Shown here in pieces: positions 10,046 to 61,911 of a stretch of 61,911 nucleotides of DNA. Origin of the DNA: an uncultured bacterium. Lineage in GTDB: Bacteria > Bacillota_I > Bacilli_A > RFN20 > CAG-826. Below the pieces are notes generated by a model that was not told the origin of the DNA, ran no database searches, and saw only the letters and a program-made list of their open reading frames with translations. How positions within the stretch are numbered: the first letter of the stretch is position 1; each line of letters begins with the position of its first letter. The position numbers and the translations under genes were made by a program. The stretch lies in the NCBI GenBank assembly GCA_949299335.1, contig CASGAD010000004.1, positions 1 through 61,911 of the forward strand, read 5' to 3'.

Positions 10046-11494
10046 ATGATATACTTTATTAGTAAAATTATGAATTTATTTGATATCATACCAGGAAATT
10101 ATTTTTCTTTATTTGCAGGTAAAAATCGCGCTGTTTATCTTGAAAGTTTATTGGTGCTTTATAATCTATTAGAAAGTGAAGAATCTTACATTAAGAAGTC
10201 TGATTTTATCAAAACATTAAAGGATAAAGCTAAAGACATTGAAAGTTTCACTTATGAAGACGAAGAGCTTGATGCAACTCAAGATGATGCTCTTCTTTTA
10301 AACACGCTTAGTGGTAAGACATCCTTTATTGTTCGTAGATTAGAAGAAACTGGTTGGATCGATATTATGATGGATCCAGATACTTTTGAGGAAGGTATCA
10401 TTTTACCTCAATATTCAATTATTATTTTAAAAGCGTTTAAAGACATTATTTCAGATGAAGAAAGTCCTTATGTTGGCTATGTCCATTCAACTTATAGTGA
10501 ACTTAAATTAGAAGATGAAGAACAAGACGACTTAATGTATAGCACCCTTGTTAGATGTTATGAAACAACTAAAAAACTTAAGGTTGAATTAATTACTATT
10601 AGTCACTCAATTAGAATTTTCCAAAATAGACTTTCTAAATTATTTGATACTAATCGTGTTTTACATGATTATTTTGATGTCTATAAAAATAAAATTAGTG
10701 ATAGATATTATCACCCATTAAAAACATTTGATAGTGTTACAAAATTTAAGCGTCCAATCATTAAAATTTTAGATAGATGGTTAAGCACAGATGAAATTAG
10801 AAATAAATTAATAGCCCAAGGACTCATTAATTCACCTTCAGCAGAAAGAAAAGATGTTGAAAGTGACGTTATAGAAAAAATTAACTTTATTACTGATACT
10901 TATGAAAAACTTAATTCGACTATCAGTAATGTTGATAAAGAAAATAATGCATATACCAAGAGTAGTACTAATAAAATTTTATATCTTAATAATAACGACA
11001 AAACCATTAAGGGCTATTTGGAAAATATTATGAAAATCTATGCTCGTAATATTAATTCAAATAGTACAAGAAATATCACAACCATCTTATCTAAGATGCA
11101 AGATAGTGTTTATTTCTATGAACAAGGTTATATAAATAGCGATTCATTGACTTTACCAATCTTAAGAAGAATTAGAGAAGAAGGCGTCCCAATGGAACTT
11201 GTAACTTTCGAGGATGCAACTGACTTCTTAATGACTAATTTCTTAGAGCAAACTAATACAGTATTTACCGATGAAAAGATTTACGCCTTTATGGAAGAGG
11301 CATTCGGAGATAAAGAAGAAATTGGTGTTGAAGAAGTACCGCTTGTTAATTTCGATGCCTTAATTTGCTTAATTCTTGCAGTTATTAAAAAAGATGATGA
11401 GAACTGCTTCTACTATGTCGAACAAGTTGATAAATCAAGAATTCATACATACGGATATATAGTTCCAAACTTTAGATTTATAAGGAAGGAGTAG
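10046..11494 (+). CDS. JetA/MksF-type kleisin-like condensin subunit (DUF5716)
   Basis: First gene of a three-gene SMC operon. The N-terminal segment LFDIIPGNYFSLFAGKNRAVYLESLLVLYNLLESEES is characteristic of JetA (DUF5716) proteins, in which a winged-helix kleisin bridges SMC heads. The 482-residue length suits the family. The two candidate starts are ATG 10046 and ATG 10070; neither has a strong SD, so the exact start is open. The gene ends 4 nt before the next ATG. In MksBEF and Wadjet systems the kleisin binds the MksE/JetB dimer and the MksB/JetC ATPase to form a loop-extruding complex. Confidence 0.82.
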   Translation: MIYFISKIMNLFDIIPGNYFSLFAGKNRAVYLESLLVLYNLLESEESYIKKSDFIKTLKDKAKDIESFTYEDEELDATQDDALLLNTLSGKTSFIVRRLEETGWIDIMMDPDTFEEGIILPQYSIIILKAFKDIISDEESPYVGYVHSTYSELKLEDEEQDDLMYSTLVRCYETTKKLKVELITISHSIRIFQNRLSKLFDTNRVLHDYFDVYKNKISDRYYHPLKTFDSVTKFKRPIIKILDRWLSTDEIRNKLIAQGLINSPSAERKDVESDVIEKINFITDTYEKLNSTISNVDKENNAYTKSSTNKILYLNNNDKTIKGYLENIMKIYARNINSNSTRNITTILSKMQDSVYFYEQGYINSDSLTLPILRRIREEGVPMELVTFEDATDFLMTNFLEQTNTVFTDEKIYAFMEEAFGDKEEIGVEEVPLVNFDALICLILAVIKKDDENCFYYVEQVDKSRIHTYGYIVPNFRFIRKE

Positions 11495-33882: not shown

Positions 33883-33987
33883 GGATTTGCAACAAAAAAA
33901 TATTATTTTTTACTTTTTTATCTATTTTTGTATTCTTTTATTTTATTATCTTTAATTTTAAAAACCATAGTCGTATACTCTTCATTT

Positions 33988-35396
33988 ATGAGAAGTAGAG
34001 AGATTGATTTTACTTATGGAAACATTTTTAAAAAGATGATTGTATTTATAATCCCTTTAATTCTTTCTACAGTTTTACAACTATTTTACTCAAGCGCGGA
34101 TTTATTTACTGTTTCTAATTTTGGTGGTGGTGAAAATTCCATGAACGCAGTTGGCGCAAACGGATCTTTAATAAATTTAATTGTTGCTCTTTTTACTGGT
34201 TTAAGCGTAGGGGCTAATGTTTATATAGCTAACGCTAGAGGAAGAAACGATAAGGAAGCTGCTAAAAAAGGCATTGGGACGTCATTATTTCTTTCTTTAA
34301 TTGTTGGGATAATTGTTCTATTATTTGGAACATTGTGTGCTAGAGAACTATTGATATTGATGCAAACGCCAATCAATGTATTAGACAAAGCAACCGAATA
34401 TTTAACGATTTATTTTTTAGGAATTCCATTTTTAATGATTTATAACTATGGAAGCGCTTGTTTAAGGTCACTAGGTGATTCCAAGAAACCTTTTTATATC
34501 TTGCTTCTTAGTGGAGTATTTAATATTGGGTTCAATTTTTTCTTGTTATAACTTTTGGATTAGATGTTAAAGGTGTTGCTATTTCTACTATTGTTAGCGA
34601 AGCAATATCTGCGATTTGCGTAGTTATTTTTCTTTTTTACAATAAAAATGGATTTGCAGCTTTAGAGATTAAACACCTTAAATTATATAAAAAAGAACTA
34701 CTTTCAATTTAAAAATAGGCGCATTTTCAGGTCTAGAATCGTTCATTTTTTTTGCTAATGTTTTCATTCAAAGAGAAGCCAACACATTTGGTGAAATCGC
34801 TATGGCAGGAAATACTGCTAGTAATAATTTAGAAGGCTATCTATATAATATTTTAAATTCATTTAGCGTTGCGGTTGTGGCTATGGTTGCTCAAAACTAT
34901 GGAGCTAAAAATAGTAAAAACATCAAAAAGATATTATTTTATGCCATAGCAACAGTTACGGTACTTGGTTTATTTATTGGCTTATTGATGGATGCTTTTA
35001 GTTATCAACTGTTAGGAATTTTTGTACAATCTAAAGAAGCCTTAGACATGGGTAGAAGTAGGCTACTAGTCATTTGTTCAACATATTTTTTGCGGAATTA
35101 TGGATGTAATGAGTGCCTATTTAAGAGGATTAGAGCATCCAGTAACACCTACTATAATTACTTTATTTGGTGCATGTGTTTTGCGTTTAGTTTTTATTTT
35201 TACAATTTTCCAAATGATTCCAGAAATACATACATTGCCATGGTTATATGCATCTTTTCCAATCTCATGGTGCGTGGTAATCTTAATTTACATACCATTT
35301 ATAGTTGTATTTTCACGAAGAGTTTTTAAAATCATTGAACTAAAAAATAATATTATAGGCTATAGAAAAGCTGACAAAATAGCCATAAATAACTGA
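33988..35396 (+). pseudogene. MATE-family efflux transporter, broken by three frameshifts
   Basis: A MATE protein of about 460 residues can be read only by changing frame three times. Part 1 (33988-34551) begins MRSREIDFTYGNIFKKMIVF and includes LRSLGDSKKPFY. Part 2 (about 34545-34710) has ITFGLDVKGVAISTIVSEAIS. Part 3 (about 34712-35085) has GAFSGLESFIFFANVFIQRE and VVAMVAQNYGAKN. Part 4 (about 35088-35396) contains IMDVMSAYLRGLEHPV. The joints fall in A/T homopolymers near 34540, 34708 and 35085. An upstream TTG-initiated frame at 33928 has no support. Substrate unknown; probably inactive unless the breaks are sequencing errors. Confidence 0.85.
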
Positions 35397-53175: not shown

Positions 53176-53454
53176 TCAACTATTTTTATTTGTTTTTATC
53201 TTATCAACAATGGAAGAAATATTTTTTAGTTTTTTATAATCTTCTATGGAAATTGATACTGTTTTTTCATCACCAATTAATTCGTTTATTGAAATATTGT
53301 ATAGAGTCGATAATTTTTTAAGTTGGGATAATTTAATGTCGTTTTTTTCTAGTTCGATATTAGAATAATTTGCTTGTGAAATATTAAGATATTTTGCTAT
53401 ATCTTTTTGCTTGAATTTATTTTTTTGTCTATAAAATTTTAAATTATTCATCAA
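53176..53454 (-). CDS. XRE-family transcriptional regulator (second)
   Basis: 92 residues with a Cro/C1-type HTH: LKFYRQKNKFKQKDIAKYLN followed by ISQANYSNIELEKNDIKLSQLKKLSTLYNISINELIG. A short C-terminal helix follows. It is the last gene of a three-gene minus-strand operon and its start overlaps the end of the preceding gene by 11 nt. Either of the first two Met codons could be used. Similar pairs of small XRE proteins control prophage and ICE gene expression. Confidence 0.85.
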   Translation of the reverse strand: MMNNLKFYRQKNKFKQKDIAKYLNISQANYSNIELEKNDIKLSQLKKLSTLYNISINELIGDEKTVSISIEDYKKLKNISSIVDKIKTNKNS

Positions 53455-54061
53455 AATCTTTTATTTTATTAAGTTCATCTAAAGCCTTACCAGAATTGAA
53501 GAAGAAGTTTAAAAAATCCGTACATTGCTTTATTTGGCTATCTAATTTAACATGATCTTCTTTGTTTTCTGATGTATAGGAAAATACGTAGCTTATAATT
53601 TCTATGTTTGCTGGTAGAAATTGTTGTAGGATTTGCTTATATGTAAAACATTGTTGAGCTTTAACTAAGTAGCTGGAAATTTTAAATGTAAATTCAAGTA
53701 TACATATTTTGTTATCTTTAATTAGAAGAAAATCACAGCGATTATTCCTTGTATATGGTATTGAATATTCCTGGATAAGTTTTGCATCTCTTCTTATTTC
53801 TTCGTTTAAGTTTTGGCTTTCAAATATTCTGTATATTAAACTTAAGGAATCTATCCAAGATAAAATGTCTTTGTTTGAATATTTTTTATTTTCGCTAATG
53901 TTAGAAGTAAGTTCTTTGAAAAGTGTAGAATTTTCTAATTTTTCTAATCTTTCATCCCAACTTACATCAGAAATTATCCATTTATTTATTTTTGGATATC
54001 TCTTTTTGATGTCTGAGAAATTAGTAAAAAAATTAATACAATTTTTTGACTCTATAATCAT
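53444..54061 (-). CDS. Protein of unknown function with possible PD-(D/E)xK nuclease core
   Basis: 205 residues, not recognised as a named family. The centre reads IPYTRNNRCDFLLIKDNKICILEFTF, which follows the restriction-endonuclease-like pattern R-x-D-hh...hhh-E-x, with Asp and Glu about ten residues apart. The Lys of ExK is replaced by Thr, although a Lys follows. A helix KAQQCFTYKQILQQFLP comes next, as in DUF2075-type proteins. No membrane segment. It lies between two XRE repressors and overlaps the downstream one, so it is probably coexpressed; a nuclease or a regulator partner are both open. Confidence 0.6.
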   Translation of the reverse strand: MIIESKNCINFFTNFSDIKKRYPKINKWIISDVSWDERLEKLENSTLFKELTSNISENKKYSNKDILSWIDSLSLIYRIFESQNLNEEIRRDAKLIQEYSIPYTRNNRCDFLLIKDNKICILEFTFKISSYLVKAQQCFTYKQILQQFLPANIEIISYVFSYTSENKEDHVKLDSQIKQCTDFLNFFFNSGKALDELNKIKDFDE

Positions 54062-54063
54062 TA

Positions 54064-54387
54064 TTAGTCTCCGTTTTTTAAGTTAATAATTCCGTGATTA
54101 TCGTTTATTACATTAGTTTGATTATTTATTTTGCTAAATATTCTATTTAGGTCGTCAATATCTTTTTGACTTAAAATTATATAATTTTCAGTACTATTTT
54201 TTCTTAGGAGTTGCATAGGCGATATTTCTAAATAATCACAAATAAGTAAAAAATTATCTAAAGTAAGTCGTATTTTTGATGATTCAATATCCCTATAAGT
54301 ACCTTGCGATATATTTAAATAATTTGCAATTTTTGCTTGAGAAATTTTTTTTGCTTCTCTTATTTTTCTTATTTCATCGATTATCAT
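54064..54387 (-). CDS. XRE-family transcriptional repressor (first)
   Basis: 107 residues. The N-terminal HTH is IREAKKISQAKIANYLNISQG followed by TYRDIESSKIRLTLDNFLLICDYLEISPMQLL; the C-terminal 40 residues are coil-like. First gene of the minus-strand operon, 2 nt before the nuclease-like gene. Its promoter overlaps that of the plus-strand gene block, an arrangement as in the C1/Cro switch, and inverted repeats there are candidate operators. Confidence 0.87.
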   Translation of the reverse strand: MIIDEIRKIREAKKISQAKIANYLNISQGTYRDIESSKIRLTLDNFLLICDYLEISPMQLLRKNSTENYIILSQKDIDDLNRIFSKINNQTNVINDNHGIINLKNGD

Positions 54388-54487: not shown

Positions 54488-54508
54488 TATGATCTTTTGG
54501 GAGTGTAT

Positions 54509-54679
54509 ATGATTGATTTAACTAATGAAATAAAATTAGGCAAATCTAATAGATATCATATTAGAGTTGCAGTGTGGCAAAAAAGAAATAATAGGATAAT
54601 GCCGAAAAAATTAAAAAGAAAACTTTATGAGGGAACTTATAAGGTGGAGCTTAATAAGAATGATTTAAAAAATCTTTAG
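54509..54679 (+). CDS. Small basic protein, early gene of the element
   Basis: 56 residues, very basic (KKLKRKLYEGTYKVELNKND), no family recognised. ATG 54509 has GGGAG 5 nt upstream; a TTG 12 nt earlier is possible but unneeded. First plus-strand gene after the divergent promoter, so probably expressed early when the XRE repressor is released. Confidence 0.6.
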   Translation: MIDLTNEIKLGKSNRYHIRVAVWQKRNNRIMPKKLKRKLYEGTYKVELNKNDLKNL

Positions 54680-54717
54680 TTTTAAATCATCAGATAAGGT
54701 TGCTAGAAATTATTTTT

Positions 54718-54999
54718 ATGGAGATTAAAAAGAATAGATTTTATTTAAATAAAAAAACAAAACATAATTCTTTCATTCTCAATCCAGGTAATAAAAAATC
54801 AAGTAGCTTAGACTTAACTCATCATCCTTCAAAAAAACATTTAAACGAATATATGAAACTATTAATTAATCCGAATCCTTTAGATAAAAGTGAATCATAT
54901 ATAGGTTTAAAGGAAAGGGAGTTTGAAAATATTCATTATGTTCGTGAAAGAAAAAATCGGATATATTCATTCAGCTCAAAGGAAGTTTGTTCTTCCTAG
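54718..54999 (+). CDS. Small basic protein of unknown function
   Basis: 93 residues starting MEIKKNRFYLNKKTKHNSFI; the frame opens slightly earlier with a TTG at 54700. It is rich in Lys/Arg and Ser, with a C-terminal YVRERKNRIYSFSSKEV. No family recognised. Its final 60 nt are overlapped by another small frame (54938-55042). Confidence 0.6.
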   Translation: MEIKKNRFYLNKKTKHNSFILNPGNKKSSSLDLTHHPSKKHLNEYMKLLINPNPLDKSESYIGLKEREFENIHYVRERKNRIYSFSSKEVCSS

Positions 55000-55042
55000 A
55001 AGTAGAAGAGAAAATAAGAAATTTGGTGTGAAAGGTTGGTGA
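54938..55042 (+). CDS. Possible 34-residue basic protein overlapping the previous gene
   Basis: Frame from ATG 54938 reads MFVKEKIGYIHSAQRKFVLP and ends in a basic segment KKFGVKGW before TGA 55040-55042. It overlaps the end of the preceding gene by 62 nt in another frame. The next gene starts 9 nt later. The protein-like tail suggests it is real or that the two are parts of one frameshifted gene; no SD is obvious. Confidence 0.35.
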   Translation: MFVKEKIGYIHSAQRKFVLPRSRRENKKFGVKGW

Positions 55043-55050
55043 TTATTTAA

Positions 55051-55233
55051 ATGAGATACCGAGTTGTTAATTCTAATGATGACAATGTATTTATGACAAA
55101 TAAATTAAGCGAAGTTAAATGGTTTTTAAAGAATCATTATGTTGGTAGAGGATATGTTTCAAAGGGATATGGCAAAGATTATCAACAAAGATTTATTAGT
55201 AATGGTTTTGTTGATTTAAAAAAATTCAGATGA
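55051..55233 (+). CDS. Small protein of unknown function
   Basis: 60 residues (MRYRVVNSNDDNVFMTNKLS opening), mixed charge, with a Tyr/Gly-rich middle. No SD stronger than GGTGATTA. It is 8 nt after the preceding frame and overlaps the next gene by 4 nt (ATGA), so is probably cotranslated. No family recognised. Confidence 0.55.
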   Translation: MRYRVVNSNDDNVFMTNKLSEVKWFLKNHYVGRGYVSKGYGKDYQQRFISNGFVDLKKFR

Positions 55234-55616
55234 AAAAGAAATTTAAAAGACATTTTAGGATTTATTTAGTTAACAATCATCCGGCTTATATAGTTGATGA
55301 GAGTGGTGATGAGTATGTGTTTCATCGAACTTCTCATAAAAATAAAATAAGCAACAAATCAACGTTTGAAATTAGAGAAAATCCTATTATTGGCGATTTT
55401 AAACCAATGTATATCGCAAAGAGACGACAAACTGAAAAGAAAGGTAGATTTTCGAGAGTTAAATTACCAATTAAAAGAGATGTAAATATAAATTATGAGT
55501 TTATAGATTCAGATTTATTGGACAAAAAAACTCCCTCGAAACAGATTTATCAAAATCGTTCAACTACATCTGGGAGTAAAACTATTAAATCAAAAAGTAA
55601 AAAGGTTGTCAAATAG
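55230..55616 (+). CDS. Basic protein of unknown function
   Basis: 128 residues, strongly basic throughout, starting MKKKFKRHFRIYLVNNHPAY. The tail (TSGSKTIKSKSKKVVK) looks disordered and nucleic-acid-like. Nucleic-acid binding is plausible but only from charge. Confidence 0.6.
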   Translation: MKKKFKRHFRIYLVNNHPAYIVDESGDEYVFHRTSHKNKISNKSTFEIRENPIIGDFKPMYIAKRRQTEKKGRFSRVKLPIKRDVNINYEFIDSDLLDKKTPSKQIYQNRSTTSGSKTIKSKSKKVVK

Positions 55617-55624
55617 GTATTTAT

Positions 55625-55810
55625 ATGAATAAAGGTTATAAGATTTCGCAAAAATATCATTTACGTATGATGAAGAAAGCTGAAAAGAAAGGAAATAAAC
55701 AGCTTGCTTTATATCATAAAGAAATTTATGAAGATCAAATAAAGCATGGCAAAATTGTTGAACGTCCTATTCGTGAAGGCTACTACAAGATAATTTTTAA
55801 GGAACGTTAA
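55625..55810 (+). CDS. Small basic protein of unknown function
   Basis: 61 residues, MNKGYKISQKYHLRMMKKAE start, helical and Lys-rich, then a Tyr/Ile end (YYKIIFKER). Preceded by a gap of 8 nt and followed after 2 nt by the next gene. No family recognised. Confidence 0.6.
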   Translation: MNKGYKISQKYHLRMMKKAEKKGNKQLALYHKEIYEDQIKHGKIVERPIREGYYKIIFKER

Positions 55811-55812
55811 TT

Positions 55813-56073
55813 ATGGATAATAAGAGATTTCATTTTATAGGTTGGTGGAAAAATGGTGATGAAATGTCAATTTGTTCCATTGCGCCGACAAAGAAACAAG
55901 CTTGGATTAATGTTTTAAAAGGTCGTAAAAACGGAAAGTTTAAGTATAAAAAAGGTGATAACTTTCGATTAGTTTATCAAACTGAGGAAGATGTTGAGAA
56001 GATTTATAGAAGGCCTTATAAACACGGTCATACTACTTGGATAGTTGATGGTGATGATATAAAGAGAAATTAA
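55813..56073 (+). CDS. Small protein of unknown function
   Basis: 86 residues with a FHFIGWWKNGDEM start and several aromatic and basic residues (FRLVYQTEEDVEKIYRRPY). No family recognised. Its stop codon lies 1 nt before the first copy of the 26-nt repeat. Confidence 0.6.
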   Translation: MDNKRFHFIGWWKNGDEMSICSIAPTKKQAWINVLKGRKNGKFKYKKGDNFRLVYQTEEDVEKIYRRPYKHGHTTWIVDGDDIKRN

Positions 56074-56074
56074 T

Positions 56075-56100
56075 TGGGTTAGCTTCACCGAAAGAAAGCA
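56075..56100 (+). repeat. Hairpin-forming 26-nt repeat, copy 1
   Basis: Begins TGGGTTAGCTTCACCG and is identical over 26 nt to 56802-56827. GCTTC can pair with GAAAGC, leaving a bulged A and the loop ACCGAAA. It starts 2 nt after a stop codon and ends 6 nt before ATG 56107. Confidence 0.85.
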
Positions 56101-56106
56101 AGAGAT

Positions 56107-56367
56107 ATGAAATATAAGTTAGTAGTTGATAGTGATGAATTACGTTTAATTCATGACTGTATTAGTTATACATACACAGAAGGATCATTATTAAAGTCCT
56201 ACAGTGTAACTGAATTTATTAATTTAATGGACATTGTTGCTAATGCTTCTTTAGAAAATTATCAAGAAGCATATGACTTTGTAAAGTCAGTTGTTGGAAA
56301 CGATGTTTCCAGGCTTAGCAAAGAGTCTGTTGTTAAATTATTTGATTCTTTTAAAAAAGGAGGTTGA
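56107..56367 (+). CDS. Small acidic/helical protein of unknown function
   Basis: 86 residues, starting MKYKLVVDSDELRLIHDCIS. Unlike its neighbours it is not strongly basic and looks alpha-helical. No family recognised. It lies 6 nt after the 26-nt hairpin repeat, whose 3' end AGAAAGCAAGAG may act as its ribosome binding site. Confidence 0.6.
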   Translation: MKYKLVVDSDELRLIHDCISYTYTEGSLLKSYSVTEFINLMDIVANASLENYQEAYDFVKSVVGNDVSRLSKESVVKLFDSFKKGG

Positions 56368-56438
56368 TAAGATCCAGGGAATAGTCATGTGTGATTGGTC
56401 TTCGTTATTTATAAATAAACTGTTAAGGATTAGTAATT

Positions 56439-56801
56439 ATGAAATTTAAACATTCTTATAAATTCAAAGATTTACCTGAGGATAATCAATGCAAGTTTTG
56501 CGTAGATTCTGCTATTAACAATTATAAAAAGTTTAAGAAAACTTTTAAAAAGCGTTATCCAGATTATGACAAAGCTACTAAAGAATTAAAAGAAAATTAT
56601 GATTTCTATAATTCTTTTATTCAGAGTTGTTATCATTCAATGTTTCGTTCTAAAGCTATAAAAAAGGGCGATAAATTGAGTAAACATTATCATGATAACT
56701 GTTGTTTATTTATAGATTATGTAAAAAGGCCATTAAGTAATGAAGAAAAGAAACTTTGCTATGAAAAAGCGAAGGAAATGTCAAAATTTGACAAAAGTTA
56801 A
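56439..56801 (+). CDS. Cys/His-containing basic protein of unknown function
   Basis: 120 residues with CKFC near residue 19, an isolated Cys-x-x-x-His (SCYHS), HYHDNCCLF and a late Cys. The mixture could bind a metal ion, though no standard zinc-ribbon spacing is complete. The protein is helical and Lys-rich. Stop codon TAA lies directly before the second 26-nt repeat copy. Confidence 0.6.
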   Translation: MKFKHSYKFKDLPEDNQCKFCVDSAINNYKKFKKTFKKRYPDYDKATKELKENYDFYNSFIQSCYHSMFRSKAIKKGDKLSKHYHDNCCLFIDYVKRPLSNEEKKLCYEKAKEMSKFDKS

Positions 56802-56827
56802 TGGGTTAGCTTCACCGAAAGAAAGCA
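56802..56827 (+). repeat. Hairpin-forming 26-nt repeat, copy 2
   Basis: Identical to 56075-56100. It starts at the base after the stop codon of the preceding gene and ends 18 nt before ATG 56846, just upstream of the SD TGGAGG. Confidence 0.85.
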
Positions 56828-56845
56828 TTTTGGAGGTTTAAAAAA

Positions 56846-57307
56846 ATGGAAAATAAAGTATTTAAAAAATTAAATGAATTAAATAATGAAGATTGCAAGA
56901 ATCTTGAAGTCGTTAAGGTTGAATTACGTCATAATGTTTCAAAAGATTATGGACATACTTATTCTTGTGAAATGTTAGTTGGTCCATATCATGTAAAATT
57001 TAGAAAAAACTTTAGCGAGCTAAATTATTACTCAATTTTAATTGCTCAAAAGGACATTAAAGAAGGTAGTTTAGTCACTGTTAATGCTTATCGTAGATGG
57101 ACTAAGGGAATGGCCAAAAATGGTAAAGAATACCATCAAGTTCAGTTAATTTTTGGAAAAGATACATTTTTAACAAGAATGATAAGTGATTCTGAGTTAT
57201 CGTTATTTAATGATTTTATAAAACGTAAAATGATTAAAGAAATCGAGTGGGTAGAAGTACCTGCAAATATTGGTGTTGATGAGGAGGTTATTAGTTTAGA
57301 CGAATAA
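56846..57307 (+). CDS. Beta-rich protein, possibly ssDNA-binding
   Basis: 153 residues. The centre (YSCEMLVGPYHVKFRKNFS, SLVTVNAYRRWTKGMAKNG, KEYHQVQLIFGK) looks like a beta-barrel with basic and aromatic surface residues, as in OB-fold or gene V-type ssDNA-binding proteins; the tail is acidic (DEEVISLDE), a common SSB feature. This is a weak structural guess. A good SD TGGAGG precedes ATG 56846. Confidence 0.55.
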   Translation: MENKVFKKLNELNNEDCKNLEVVKVELRHNVSKDYGHTYSCEMLVGPYHVKFRKNFSELNYYSILIAQKDIKEGSLVTVNAYRRWTKGMAKNGKEYHQVQLIFGKDTFLTRMISDSELSLFNDFIKRKMIKEIEWVEVPANIGVDEEVISLDE

Positions 57308-57317
57308 CCCTTTTGCT

Positions 57318-57542
57318 ATGAGTAAAAGAAATTATTTAGCAGGAAAAAAATACGGATTATATTACAAAGATCTTTCTTTGGATGAAAAGGTAAAGATTAG
57401 AGATCGTTATTTACGTAAAACTAAAAATATTGAAATTAATAATACGTTTTTAAGGGCTAATCAAATTGAAAATCGTATTGATTTCTATTGTGGGGTTATT
57501 GATTATCTAAATAAAGTTATAAAAGATGAAAAAAAAGACTAG
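57318..57542 (+). CDS. Small basic helical protein of unknown function
   Basis: 74 residues, starting MSKRNYLAGKKYGLYYKDLS, Lys/Arg-rich and predicted helical. Its end overlaps the following secreted protein gene by 17 nt. No family recognised. Confidence 0.55.
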   Translation: MSKRNYLAGKKYGLYYKDLSLDEKVKIRDRYLRKTKNIEINNTFLRANQIENRIDFYCGVIDYLNKVIKDEKKD

Positions 57543-58824
57543 AGGAGTTTTATTGTGTGTTGCATCACTACTTATTTTAGGAAGTGCTGTAGCTGTTGTT
57601 GGAGTTGGTTCAAATGGCTTTAAAAATTGGGACACTTCTACTTGGTTTAAGGATGCTTTTAGTGGTGTTCAAATTGAAAGTAAAGTTTTTGAATACGATG
57701 GGGAGAATAAAGTTTTAGACATTGTTGTTCCAGAAAATGCAACTTATGAATTAACAATTACTAATTCAAATAACGAAATTGTAGATTCTTGCATTGAGAT
57801 TGGAATTTATAATTACAAAGTTGTTGTTAAAATTGGTGATTTGACTAAAGAATATAATGCAACATTAGAAATTGTCGAAAATTTAAATGAGGTTACTGAG
57901 GAAACAATAGTTAATGTTTCAAATGTAAATGGACTTAGATTTGTACAAAAAGCTGCTGTTAATAATGGGGATGGAACGTTTACTGAAACAATTACATATA
58001 CAACAAATGGGGATGTAACTAATAATTTTTATGTAACTTTAGCTTGGTCTCAAGATTATGTTGATGATGTTTATAATTATTATTCTGTTGATTTAAGCTT
58101 AGAAAGTAAAACTATAAGTATAACCAATAAGAAGGCTTGTCCTAAACAAGCTACTTTGAAAATCGTACATAATGATGATCCATCTATTAATGCTAGTTTA
58201 ACTATCGATTATAAAGTTAAAAAATTATCCAGTGCATCTATTACTATTAGTGGTGGTGAAAATTCTATTTTGCAAGATGGATTGAATTTAGTTCCTTCTA
58301 TCACTGCTCCTACTTATAGTGTCGGATCAATAGATATTGCTCGTGAAAGTGAAAATTTTTCAGTTAGTGGTAATATGAATTGGGCATCTGCAAGTGGTTA
58401 TTCAGGAGTCGGTCAAATTTTATCTCTTTCGACAGAGTTATACACTGCATATAGTGATTACAAATATAAAGGTACTAATTATGATTCATCTACTGATTTA
58501 TTAAAAGCTATGCAAAGCGAGATAACTAACGCTTTTAATTCTATTTATTCTCTTAGTGATAAAACTATTTCTTTTAATTTTTCTGCTTTAAAAGAAGCAT
58601 TAACTTATCAATATTCTTATAAAACATTTACGATTAACTATTCTAACGCAAATTTATATAGTGAATTTATAAATGAATTTAGCACATTGTGTTCGTCTCG
58701 AGGGAGTTCATATCGAGTAACTTTTAGTGCTTATGGTGTTAATAAATCGATTGATTTTAAAAATCTTTCTATGACTACTTTAAGTGGTGGTATTTCCTTA
58801 GATAACGAAAGTATTGTTTTTTAA
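57526..58824 (+). CDS. Secreted or N-anchored protein with Ig-like domain
   Basis: 432 residues. A Lys-rich N-terminus and hydrophobic stretch VLLCVASLLILGSAVAVVGVG act as signal or anchor. Residues about 45-110 (VFEYDGENKVLDIVVPE ... GDLTKEYNATLEIVE) look like a MBG/Ig-like beta-sandwich, then Ser/Thr-rich beta repeats follow. There is no C-terminal membrane helix or sortase LPxTG motif. First of five envelope-directed genes; could be a virion, pilus or surface protein. The ATG overlaps the previous gene. Confidence 0.65.
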   Translation: MKKKTRGVLLCVASLLILGSAVAVVGVGSNGFKNWDTSTWFKDAFSGVQIESKVFEYDGENKVLDIVVPENATYELTITNSNNEIVDSCIEIGIYNYKVVVKIGDLTKEYNATLEIVENLNEVTEETIVNVSNVNGLRFVQKAAVNNGDGTFTETITYTTNGDVTNNFYVTLAWSQDYVDDVYNYYSVDLSLESKTISITNKKACPKQATLKIVHNDDPSINASLTIDYKVKKLSSASITISGGENSILQDGLNLVPSITAPTYSVGSIDIARESENFSVSGNMNWASASGYSGVGQILSLSTELYTAYSDYKYKGTNYDSSTDLLKAMQSEITNAFNSIYSLSDKTISFNFSALKEALTYQYSYKTFTINYSNANLYSEFINEFSTLCSSRGSSYRVTFSAYGVNKSIDFKNLSMTTLSGGISLDNESIVF

Positions 58825-58845: not shown

Positions 58846-59409
58846 ATGCAAATTAAAAGTTTTAAAAAGTATTTTATTGGTATTACTTCAGCCATAATTT
58901 TATTTGGAATAGGTATTACATTTATATATTTATGGAAATCATCTAATGGTTTTAATAAAAATTTAGTTGGTTTTTATTTAAAATCTGATGATGAAAAATT
59001 ATATTTATATGATCAAAATATTACTTTTGATAGTAATAAAGAATATTGTTTCGAAATTATAGAAACATTAAATAATAATAGTTCATATGATGTTAATTTT
59101 GAAATATATAATGATTTTACATTTGAATACGAATCTATAATATATAAGTTTTCAGACCTTGCTGTAGATTTGAATGAAATTTTTAATTTAAAAATTGATG
59201 GAAAGAAATTTTATTTTTCAACTTATTATGATATTAATGACATTATTAGTTATAGCTTTGGTAATAATATTGTTATTGATGAATTAGCACTTGATGAATA
59301 TTATTTTAAATTTTCTGTTAAATCAAATAGTTCATATTTAGAATTTCCGTTTAATTATAAAATTCCTTTAGTTGAGATTAATTTAGATATTCCCGGGGTT
59401 ATATTTTGA
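58846..59409 (+). CDS. N-anchored extracytoplasmic protein
   Basis: 187 residues. One N-terminal membrane helix (YFIGITSAIILFGIGITFIYL) is followed by a beta-rich acidic extracytoplasmic domain. No family recognised. GAGG lies a few nt before ATG 58846. Its TGA stop overlaps the following TTG start, so the two are likely cotranslated. Confidence 0.62.
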   Translation: MQIKSFKKYFIGITSAIILFGIGITFIYLWKSSNGFNKNLVGFYLKSDDEKLYLYDQNITFDSNKEYCFEIIETLNNNSSYDVNFEIYNDFTFEYESIIYKFSDLAVDLNEIFNLKIDGKKFYFSTYYDINDIISYSFGNNIVIDELALDEYYFKFSVKSNSSYLEFPFNYKIPLVEINLDIPGVIF

Positions 59410-60809
59410 AAAATTTAATTTTGTTATCATTAATTAGTTTAAATTTTGTGAGCACTTATAATTCGAAAGATTATATTTTAAGTGAGTTAAAACAAGATAT
59501 TAAATTTGATGAAAATTCTTTTATTATTGATAAAAATTGTGCATTACATGAAGATTTTCAAGGAATTTTATTATATGAGCATTCTGATAATGATTTAATT
59601 TTTTACTTATTTAATCAAGCTGGTTTCGGTCTTTTAAATACAGATAATTGTAGAATTTTAATGTCATATAATGATTCAATTTATAATCATTATTCATTAG
59701 AGTTTTTAGGTAACTCAAACGACTTAAAGTTTTATAAATTTAAAATTAAAGATTTCTATGTCGATTATTCAATTAGCGAACGTACTTATAACATTGTAGA
59801 GTTTGAAATTAAGCAAGAAAGAGTTTTTGAAGGTGATAATGCTATTGGTGTTAAAGCTATTGATAACTATTATTCGTGTGATATCAGTCAAGAATATACT
59901 TATATAGATAATTCATATTCTATGAATGAATTAAAAACTTTAACTATCGATGTAAATGCTGATTATTTTAGAGTACCAGGTTCAAAAAATAATTATCCTA
60001 ATTTTGAAATAGTTCAAACTGATATTTTCTATATTTATTTCCTAATGCCTACTAATTATGGTGATTTAATTAGTATTGATATTGAGTGGTATGAAAATTT
60101 CGAGCATTATAGAGGCTATAATTCGAGTGATCCATTTTATGAACCAGAGGATTATTATGATTCTTATATTAATAAATATGTGAGAAAAATTATTAGTGAA
60201 GATGATAATACTTCATTAGATGCAAATAGTTTTTACTTCTTCAATCCTGCTAATTGGTTTGTTGGTGGGTCTAAAGGATATGACCTAAAAAATCTACAAT
60301 CTTTTGCTTTAAATGATTTGGATGAATTGAACAATAAAGAAAACAATTATTGCTTAACTAATAATTCCATTAATTTCATTAAAGAAAACTTAGCTAATTT
60401 GCAAACTGTTCCTTACGTCATAAGATTTGATGCAAAAGATTTTTGCCGTAGAGATTACTCAGTTGTTGGGGAATTTGGTGTTTTAGAATTTTATTACGAG
60501 ATAAAAAGATTTTATATGACTGATGTAGATGTGATTACTTGTACATTTAACAAAAATGGGGAAGTATATATTTTGCCGGTTGTTTCTAATACTAATAATA
60601 TAACGACAGGTGATAATATCGTGCCTAATAATGAATACTTGGCTTTAATTAAAAAGATAATTTTTATAGCTCTTATTATAATTTGTTTTATCTTATTATT
60701 ACCTATTATTCCTGCATTAATTAATTTAATAATTTTTATTATTTCTTTACCTTTTAGATTTATTAAACGGATTATTAAAACTTTTAAAAAGGAAAAGAAA
60801 GATGGATAA
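59406..60809 (+). CDS. Secreted protein with C-terminal membrane anchor
   Basis: 467 residues. N-terminal signal-like MKNLILLSLISLNFVSTYNS, a long beta-rich extracytoplasmic region, and near the end two close hydrophobic segments (IIFIALIIICFILLLPIIPA and LINLIIFIISLPF) followed by a basic tail. The TTG start (59406) has GGGG 7 nt upstream and overlaps the previous stop. This N-secreted, C-anchored architecture is that of filamentous-phage minor coat proteins (pIII-like) but also of other surface proteins. Confidence 0.62.
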   Translation: MKNLILLSLISLNFVSTYNSKDYILSELKQDIKFDENSFIIDKNCALHEDFQGILLYEHSDNDLIFYLFNQAGFGLLNTDNCRILMSYNDSIYNHYSLEFLGNSNDLKFYKFKIKDFYVDYSISERTYNIVEFEIKQERVFEGDNAIGVKAIDNYYSCDISQEYTYIDNSYSMNELKTLTIDVNADYFRVPGSKNNYPNFEIVQTDIFYIYFLMPTNYGDLISIDIEWYENFEHYRGYNSSDPFYEPEDYYDSYINKYVRKIISEDDNTSLDANSFYFFNPANWFVGGSKGYDLKNLQSFALNDLDELNNKENNYCLTNNSINFIKENLANLQTVPYVIRFDAKDFCRRDYSVVGEFGVLEFYYEIKRFYMTDVDVITCTFNKNGEVYILPVVSNTNNITTGDNIVPNNEYLALIKKIIFIALIIICFILLLPIIPALINLIIFIISLPFRFIKRIIKTFKKEKKDG

Positions 60810-60871: not shown

Positions 60872-61246
60872 ATGAATAATAAATCTAATGTAATAAAATT
60901 GAGTTTATGTATCTTAATTTTAATTTCTTTTATTTATTTTATTTATTATGCTTTTGCCCCCTTTTTTATTTATTGTAGCTCTAAAGATACATCTATAGAT
61001 TTTCTAATTAATAATGTTTATCTCTGCGATTCTGATAAGAGAGGTATTCTCATTGAAAGTGATAGCAAAATGAGATTATTTGATTATGAAGGAAAGGCAC
61101 CTGATATTTTTATTAATAAGGAAACTTTTTATACGTTTAATTATTTAGATGGAATTTTTATTACATCTGAATCTAAATATTTTGTTTATGGGAGTGATTT
61201 CCTTTATGAAGAAAATACAAAAGTTCTCTATAAAAAGTTTAATTAA
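60872..61246 (+). CDS. Small membrane-anchored protein
   Basis: 124 residues. An N-terminal helix (LSLCILILISFIYFIYYAFAPFF) is followed by a short extracytoplasmic domain. A strong SD TTGGAGG precedes ATG 60872. Its last 41 nt overlap the next gene. No family recognised. Confidence 0.6.
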   Translation: MNNKSNVIKLSLCILILISFIYFIYYAFAPFFIYCSSKDTSIDFLINNVYLCDSDKRGILIESDSKMRLFDYEGKAPDIFINKETFYTFNYLDGIFITSESKYFVYGSDFLYEENTKVLYKKFN

Positions 61247-61859
61247 GAATAATTTATTTTTAATTATTAATTTATTTATTATTTTAATATTAACTATAAT
61301 TCTTAGTTGTTTTTTTAGCTCTTCATATAGACATGCTTATTTTTCTATTAAATATTTTATAGATTCTTTTAAATGTTATTTTGCTGCTGTTTTTAGAATT
61401 GAATTTTCTAATGAAGTATATACGACTTATGATTATATCGTAGATTTGAATCATGGTAATATTGCTAGCCCTTTTTTAAATTCTGTTGAATTTTATTTAC
61501 CAGTTAATTTTGATGATATAAACATTTATATTAAAGCAAGTTGGTTTACTTTTTGGAATTTTGAAAATTTTAAAAGCAGCTTTAATTTTATTTTTAATAT
61601 ACTTGAATATTTTAATATTGTTTTTTTAATTGTTGTTCTTTCTTTTACATTGTTGTTGATTGTTGACTCTTTGTATTTTTCTGAAAAGAAAAGTAATGTT
61701 GATGGTTTTACTCGAGGATCTAATTTTTATTTCTTAATTAATCGTAAGTTTTTTAAGTTTAGATTGTTCGTTGGAAAGAGGAAAATAAAAATAACCATAA
61801 TGAGGAATTTAAATACGCCAATATTGGTAACTAAATTTCAATATTGTATAAACTTATAA
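61206..61859 (+). CDS. Two-helix membrane protein
   Basis: 217 residues from ATG 61206 (MKKIQKFSIKSLIKNNLFL). The frame extends to 61149 but that part overlaps the previous gene. Two hydrophobic segments, LIINLFIILILTIILSCFF near the N-terminus and FNIVFLIVVLSFTLLLIVDSLYF about 140 residues later, bracket an extracytoplasmic aromatic-rich region; a basic C-terminus is cytosolic. No family recognised. Confidence 0.58.
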   Translation: MKKIQKFSIKSLIKNNLFLIINLFIILILTIILSCFFSSSYRHAYFSIKYFIDSFKCYFAAVFRIEFSNEVYTTYDYIVDLNHGNIASPFLNSVEFYLPVNFDDINIYIKASWFTFWNFENFKSSFNFIFNILEYFNIVFLIVVLSFTLLLIVDSLYFSEKKSNVDGFTRGSNFYFLINRKFFKFRLFVGKRKIKITIMRNLNTPILVTKFQYCINL

Positions 61860-61878
61860 AAAGAAAGGTTATACAAGA

Positions 61879-61911
61879 ATGAAATATGATATAGAAAGTG
61901 CCATATCAAGA
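61879..61911 (+). CDS. Start of a further gene, cut by the window edge
   Basis: ATG 61879 with AAGAAAGG 11 nt upstream begins MKYDIESAISR and is open to the window edge. Too short to identify. In a filamentous-phage order a morphogenesis ATPase or structural gene could be expected here, but nothing yet shows this. Confidence 0.5.
   Translation, partial: MKYDIESAISR

Follow-up and report, generated by a model that had tools for sequence, protein, structure and literature searches.

What is the function of a short non-coding sequence that stands unchanged in front of two different small genes? Within the window (i.e., the whole stretch of DNA analysed here, which is one entire contig of 61,911 nt), TGGGTTAGCTTCACCGAAAGAAAGCA is the sole 26-mer that is present twice, namely at 56075..56100 (copy 1) and 56802..56827 (copy 2), both on the forward strand. 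The first-pass annotation had described two copies matching over all 26 nt, each placed just after a stop codon and near the next start, and this is what we find: copy 1 starts 1 nt past the TAA at 56071-56073 and ends about 6-7 nt ahead of the ATG at 56107, and copy 2 follows the TAA at 56799-56801 without a gap, with 18 nt between its end and the ATG at 56846. A genome-wide search for the 24-nt core, allowing up to 3 mismatches, found no third copy.

The gene behind copy 1 (56107..56367, + strand, 86 aa) has a weak ribosome-binding site and is an orphan, i.e., no homologue was found among the 25 other genomes of the genus. Copy 2 belongs to the leader of a 153-aa gene (56846..57307, + strand), whose Shine-Dalgarno sequence GGAGG (56832..56836, + strand) lies between the copy and the start codon and is followed by the A/U-rich stretch GUUUAAAAAAAUG. 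The likeness of the two flanks reaches about 8 nt upstream of the 26-mer; otherwise the flanks do not align, and no homology was found between the genes flanking copy 1 and those flanking copy 2. A tandem duplication of a gene block, which had been named beforehand as the competing explanation, is thus contradicted. We also observe that the site (56801-56809 in the window, and in relatives) opens with a two-codon mini-ORF AUG GGU UAG, which overlaps the upstream stop codon in copy 2, starts with UUG in copy 1 and in genome G015, and is absent in G024.

The 153-aa gene and its phage-like element

From about 53 kb onward, the right end of the window is an integrated element. Divergent XRE regulators come first, then small genes and the 153-aa gene, then genes for secreted and spike-like proteins, and finally the beginning of a gene for a large membrane protein. 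The leftward regulatory module (53176..54387, - strand), in which two XRE-type regulators (53176-53454, 54064-54387) flank a 205-aa protein, diverges from the rightward genes. The latter begin with small early genes, several of them basic, that lead to copy 1 (54497..56073, + strand; homologues of those at 54497, 54700 and 55230 occur in other elements). Behind the 153-aa gene follow, all on the + strand, a 432-aa secreted or membrane-anchored protein (57526..58824), to which the first secreted protein in related elements is homologous, a spike-like protein (59406..60809) that has a signal peptide plus a membrane anchor at its C-terminus, i.e., an adsorption-protein candidate, and the N-terminal piece of a morphogenesis-type membrane protein (61149..61859).

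In genus-mates, related elements are complete: behind the spike gene, they encode a membrane protein of about 750 aa, a Rep of the rolling-circle type (matches to Rep_trans with E 1.9e-33 and 7.3e-31) and a tyrosine integrase. A homologous 417-aa Rep ORF, an integrase and the rest of the ATPase, i.e., the remainder of the morphogenesis-type protein, are located on contig G000:C8 and probably belong to the window's element. Among about 20 elements of the order, the membrane-protein family spans 713-818 aa and carries a Walker A motif (e.g., GPPGTGKT, GAPGVGKT) as well as hhDEQ in some members; the family has no match to Pfam Zot, and no coat protein was identified in the elements. The layout is that of an inovirus-like (filamentous-phage-like) prophage, known here from its genes.

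The morphogenesis-protein gene is split between two contig ends (window 61800-61911 and G000:C8), and their likely terminal inverted repeats (GGAATTTAAATACGCCAATATTG vs. CAAAATTGGCGTTTTTAAATTCC) suggest that a transposon interrupts it. G018 seemingly has the element twice, in closely related versions on contigs C13, C14 and C15, and contig ends interrupt both at one and the same position in the morphogenesis gene. The leftward modules of loci L009 (11014-12306) and L043 (6629-7682) hold a Mrr-like nuclease with an HRDC domain beside the XRE regulators; in L009 this nuclease is flanked by two XREs, and the window has the different 205-aa protein between its own. Elsewhere in the window (33928-35396), a MATE-type transporter gene is apparently broken up into three overlapping or adjacent reading frames.

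The product of the 153-aa gene is probably the single-stranded-DNA-binding protein (SSB) of the element, as judged from C-terminal tips, position and fold topology. Its predicted structure (pLDDT 81) has a b-b-b-a-b-b-b-a topology with OB-like strand order. Profile searches returned no match in Pfam and one weak, functionless match in PHROG, with no SSB match. No PDB model confirmed an SSB, i.e., both Foldseek (best E 0.046) and a VIA search with the SSB model (Z at most 3.7) gave weak mixed matches. Since the structure searches are without a confident match, the fold is assigned by strand order alone. Remote homologues, i.e., proteins from the same place in related elements plus others in the class, end in DPLPF, DEIPF, NNIPF, NSVPF, LEDFSF or SEFTF; such acidic tips closed by aromatics resemble those of SSBs. 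Furthermore, the element resembles ssDNA phages, and the gene precedes the structural genes in it.

Conservation among relatives and the pseudoknot model

The site is present in 6/26 genomes of the genus, which are exactly those with a close SSB orthologue. A profile search places these orthologues, beside that of the window, in G010, G015, G018, G021 and G024, and the site precedes the gene in each. That is, related elements do hold further copies, as had been proposed for checking: each of the five genus-mates carries the site once, and it stands before one orthologous gene in 6/6 genomes, with a spacing of 17-21 nt to the SSB start (five genomes measured, window included). Identity to the window copies is 22/24 in G010, G018, G021 and G024 and 20/24 in G015; the corresponding values (relatives vs. 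window) are 23-43% for the 60 nt upstream and 51-56% for the SSB coding DNA. Of the 13-mers that all six elements share when up to one mismatch is tolerated, only CCGAAAGAAAGCA is not AT-rich and also keeps its position; one-mismatch matches at other places in the order occur in unrelated context that is apparently coding. The earlier argument that such non-coding conservation implies selection or recent duplication is borne out on the side of selection, since the site was kept in five other genomes while its surroundings diverged. We conclude that the repeat is a real, selected cis-acting element. A protein-coding 24-mer was considered and rejected, as most variant differences would change an amino acid.

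The element is confined to one genus. It is absent from the leaders of remote SSB homologues. In viral contigs, an exact 24-mer search gave no match and a degenerate search gave two, both in unrelated context; relatives of the SSB and of the morphogenesis protein were not found in these contigs, nor were SSB relatives found in phage records. Rfam lists no family at this place above the gathering threshold, and a relaxed search yielded chance-level matches only. Two genus-mates (G008, G022) have a different strong 10-bp hairpin (GAGGCAAGAT...ATCTTGCCTC, z -2.18) just before an SSB-like gene (L090 of G022 at 11310-11400; L111 of G008), which is possibly another operator type. Between loci L007 (G010) and L009 (G021), the upstream parts are unrelated (33% identity) and the site plus the downstream genes are nearly identical, a contrast that reads as a recombination boundary right at the leader.

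Four sequence variants are observed, i.e., GGGTTAGCTTCACCGAAAGAAAGC (window), GGGTTAGCTTTGCCGAAAGAAAGC (G010, G018, G021), GAGTTAGCTTCACTGAAAGAAAGC (G024) and GGGTTAACTTTGCCGAAAGAAAGT (G015), which give the 24-nt core GRGUUARCUUYRCYGAAAGAAAGY when written as RNA. Judging from these variants, the core probably folds into a very small H-type pseudoknot. Its helix S1 would pair positions 2-4 with 12-14 (GGU/ACC; 56077-56079 with 56087-56089 in copy 1, 56804-56806 with 56814-56816 in copy 2) and its helix S2 positions 7-10 with 21-24 (GCUU/AAGC; 56082-56085 with 56096-56099 and 56809-56812 with 56823-56826, respectively), such that the two helices interleave. The resulting loop lengths of 2, 1 and 6 appear sterically plausible for an H-type pseudoknot; loop 3 is the A-rich GAAAGA (56090-56095 in copy 1, 56817-56822 in copy 2, + strand).

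The first-pass annotation had instead proposed a hairpin of GCTTC with GAAAGC, having a bulged A and a seven-base loop, and had likened it to operators bound by phage proteins. These pairs can form, but only with -2.0 kcal/mol, which is no better than shuffles (z +0.68), and the hairpin covers half of the pseudoknot; it is thus not the best model. Nor is the bulge required, as G010, G018, G021 and G015 (4/6 genomes) can form five pairs without it (GCUUU/AAAGC or ACUUU/AAAGU). What stands of the operator idea is a conserved RNA-like site before genes of a phage-like element; what it missed is the second, interleaved helix GGU/ACC.

Covariation in relatives, which had been named as a check, is indeed seen with one compensatory change per helix. 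The stem 7-10/21-24, already part of the hairpin, shows a 7/24 change from G-C to A-U in G015, and helix 2-4/12-14 shows a 2/14 change from G-C to A-U in G024 as well as a U-A/U-G pair at 4/12. All 28/28 pair cells are standard, i.e., 7/7 pairs are intact in all four variants, compared to 17-54% paired in slid control pairings; the bulged-hairpin model has one compensatory pair. Under simulated random substitution, 1.3% of cases have shared helices with at least two compensatory pairs, and 35/500 shuffles reach the observed covariation, with only four distinct variants available. For structure on these four variants, P is about 0.01-0.07. The covariation support for the pseudoknot is good, not decisive.

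Readings of the element

We propose, at about even chances, that the repeat serves as a translational operator and allows the SSB to repress the gene that encodes it, in a T4 gene 32-like manner, with the second copy adding the orphan gene. Whenever free SSB exceeds exposed ssDNA, it would bind the leader pseudoknot and would next cover the adjacent A/U-rich ribosome-binding region (GGAGGUUUAAAAAAAUG after the site in the window), which would block translation of its own gene. As ssDNA accumulates, SSB would be titrated away and translation would resume. Copy 1, about 6-7 nt before the 86-aa orphan gene, would place that gene under the same SSB control. Between site and AUG, most copies show UUUAAA or UAAAA within a segment of only 17-21 nt. 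It is likely that the SSB-like product of the gene itself binds the site, and not one of the small basic proteins that had first been named as candidates.

The same conservation and covariation would also fit a structured leader that regulates the SSB gene with another ligand (a host protein, an RNase or a small molecule) or that serves as 5' stabiliser or translation enhancer. Tiny riboswitch aptamers have a similar small A-rich H-type shape, and the different strong hairpin of G022 and G008 (z -2.18) hints that structured leaders may be a general feature. Rfam has no matching family even at a relaxed threshold, however, and the element accompanies a single phage gene, which points to a ligand that the phage encodes; we assign this reading a modest probability. 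It is unlikely that the site acts as double-stranded DNA, i.e., as an operator or part of a promoter to which an XRE regulator of the element or another transcription factor binds. GCTT-N10-AAGC forms an inverted repeat, a DNA palindrome would likewise accommodate the 7/24 change, and a promoter-like TATAAG abuts the site in G024; yet interleaving of two helices is more readily reconciled with RNA than with a DNA site for a dimer, the upstream -10-like sequence is not conserved, and no promoter-like coding-strand match is found just upstream of either window copy. Furthermore, no additional copy was found in the elements, be it between the divergent XRE regulators, where their promoters would lie, or at another place, and the absence of copies from this regulator region led us to reject an XRE operator.

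More unlikely still is a signal in single-stranded phage DNA, i.e., a replication origin, a packaging signal or an SSB nucleation site. The elements look ssDNA-phage-like with a rolling-circle Rep, and the site would also be present in one DNA strand, but it is very small, occurs twice in the window and, at a distance from rep, keeps a constant spacing of 17-21 nt to a single start codon. A minicistron (AUG GGU UAG) or other translated leader can be read in copy 2, G010, G018 and G021 (ATG GGT TAG) as well as in copy 1 and G015 (TTG GGT TAG/TAA), but G024 has AAG AGT TAG, and both the conservation of positions 8-24 and the 2/14 and 7/24 double changes would be left unexplained; we consider it highly improbable. 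Next to no probability is given to a neutral recent duplication. The identity of copies 1 and 2 and the similarity of about 8 nt upstream agree with it, while the conservation of orthologous sites in five other genomes amid diverged surroundings already contradicts it for copy 2; copy 1, to which it may still apply, may well be a recent insertion.

Comparison with known operators and significance

The closest parallel to the proposed SSB operator is found in T4-like phages, for which autogenous SSB control via an mRNA pseudoknot is already known: the SSB of T4 gene 32 binds a pseudoknot of about 28 nt in its own leader, followed by an unstructured, UUAAA-rich ribosome-binding segment (PMC535899). 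Like the gene 32 leaders of T4 and RB69, the element is a putative pseudoknot in the leader of a probable phage SSB gene, followed by an A/U-rich, UUUAAA-containing ribosome-binding region. In contrast, no sequence similarity was detected in protein or RNA, the phage class is an inovirus-like prophage, and the window holds a second target gene. The putative pseudoknot is also smaller (24 nt with 3- and 4-bp stems vs. about 28 nt) and nearer to the start codon (17-21 nt vs. >40 nt). Given that the protein has no Pfam or PHROG SSB match, the system may be said to work like the T4 gene 32 type, not to be a member of it. The T4-like phage RB49 is reported without a recognisable pseudoknot (PMC535899), an operator divergence similar to that of SSB leaders in the group studied here.

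M13 gp5 is a second SSB known to repress an mRNA, namely that of gene II, and whether other SSB proteins regulate specific mRNAs was not known in 2004 (PMC535899). The gene V protein of the Ff phages (M13/f1/fd) is alike in being a filamentous-phage SSB for which translational repression via an mRNA leader has been proposed, as it is here. Unlike in the gene V/gene II case, the site stands before the SSB gene and not the rep gene (no copy was found near rep in the scanned elements), and it would be a compact folded element. The coat operators of MS2, R17 and Qbeta are likewise small hairpins close to a start codon and have a bulged A, as in the hairpin first proposed, but the bulge is not required in four genomes here, RNA-phage genes are lacking, and the second helix and the conserved A-rich loop differ. 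A search of open-licence papers gave no earlier description of inovirus leaders with a pseudoknot.

We regard the element as a probable new RNA operator; its kind is known, its setting is new. Somewhat short of even chances, we further consider that it is among the smallest natural pseudoknot operators, that a filamentous-phage SSB without sequence relation to T4 gp32 evolved this pseudoknot-based autogenous control independently, and that the window's element copied it such that a second gene was recruited into the SSB regulon. The small size and the informative natural variants make the claim testable with a handful of mutants, and the element provides a sequence handle on little-known integrated elements of uncultured gut Bacilli. 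If true, filamentous-phage-like elements would provide another case that evolved independently, which would point to convergence, with ssDNA phages gauging free SSB via a tiny folded leader.
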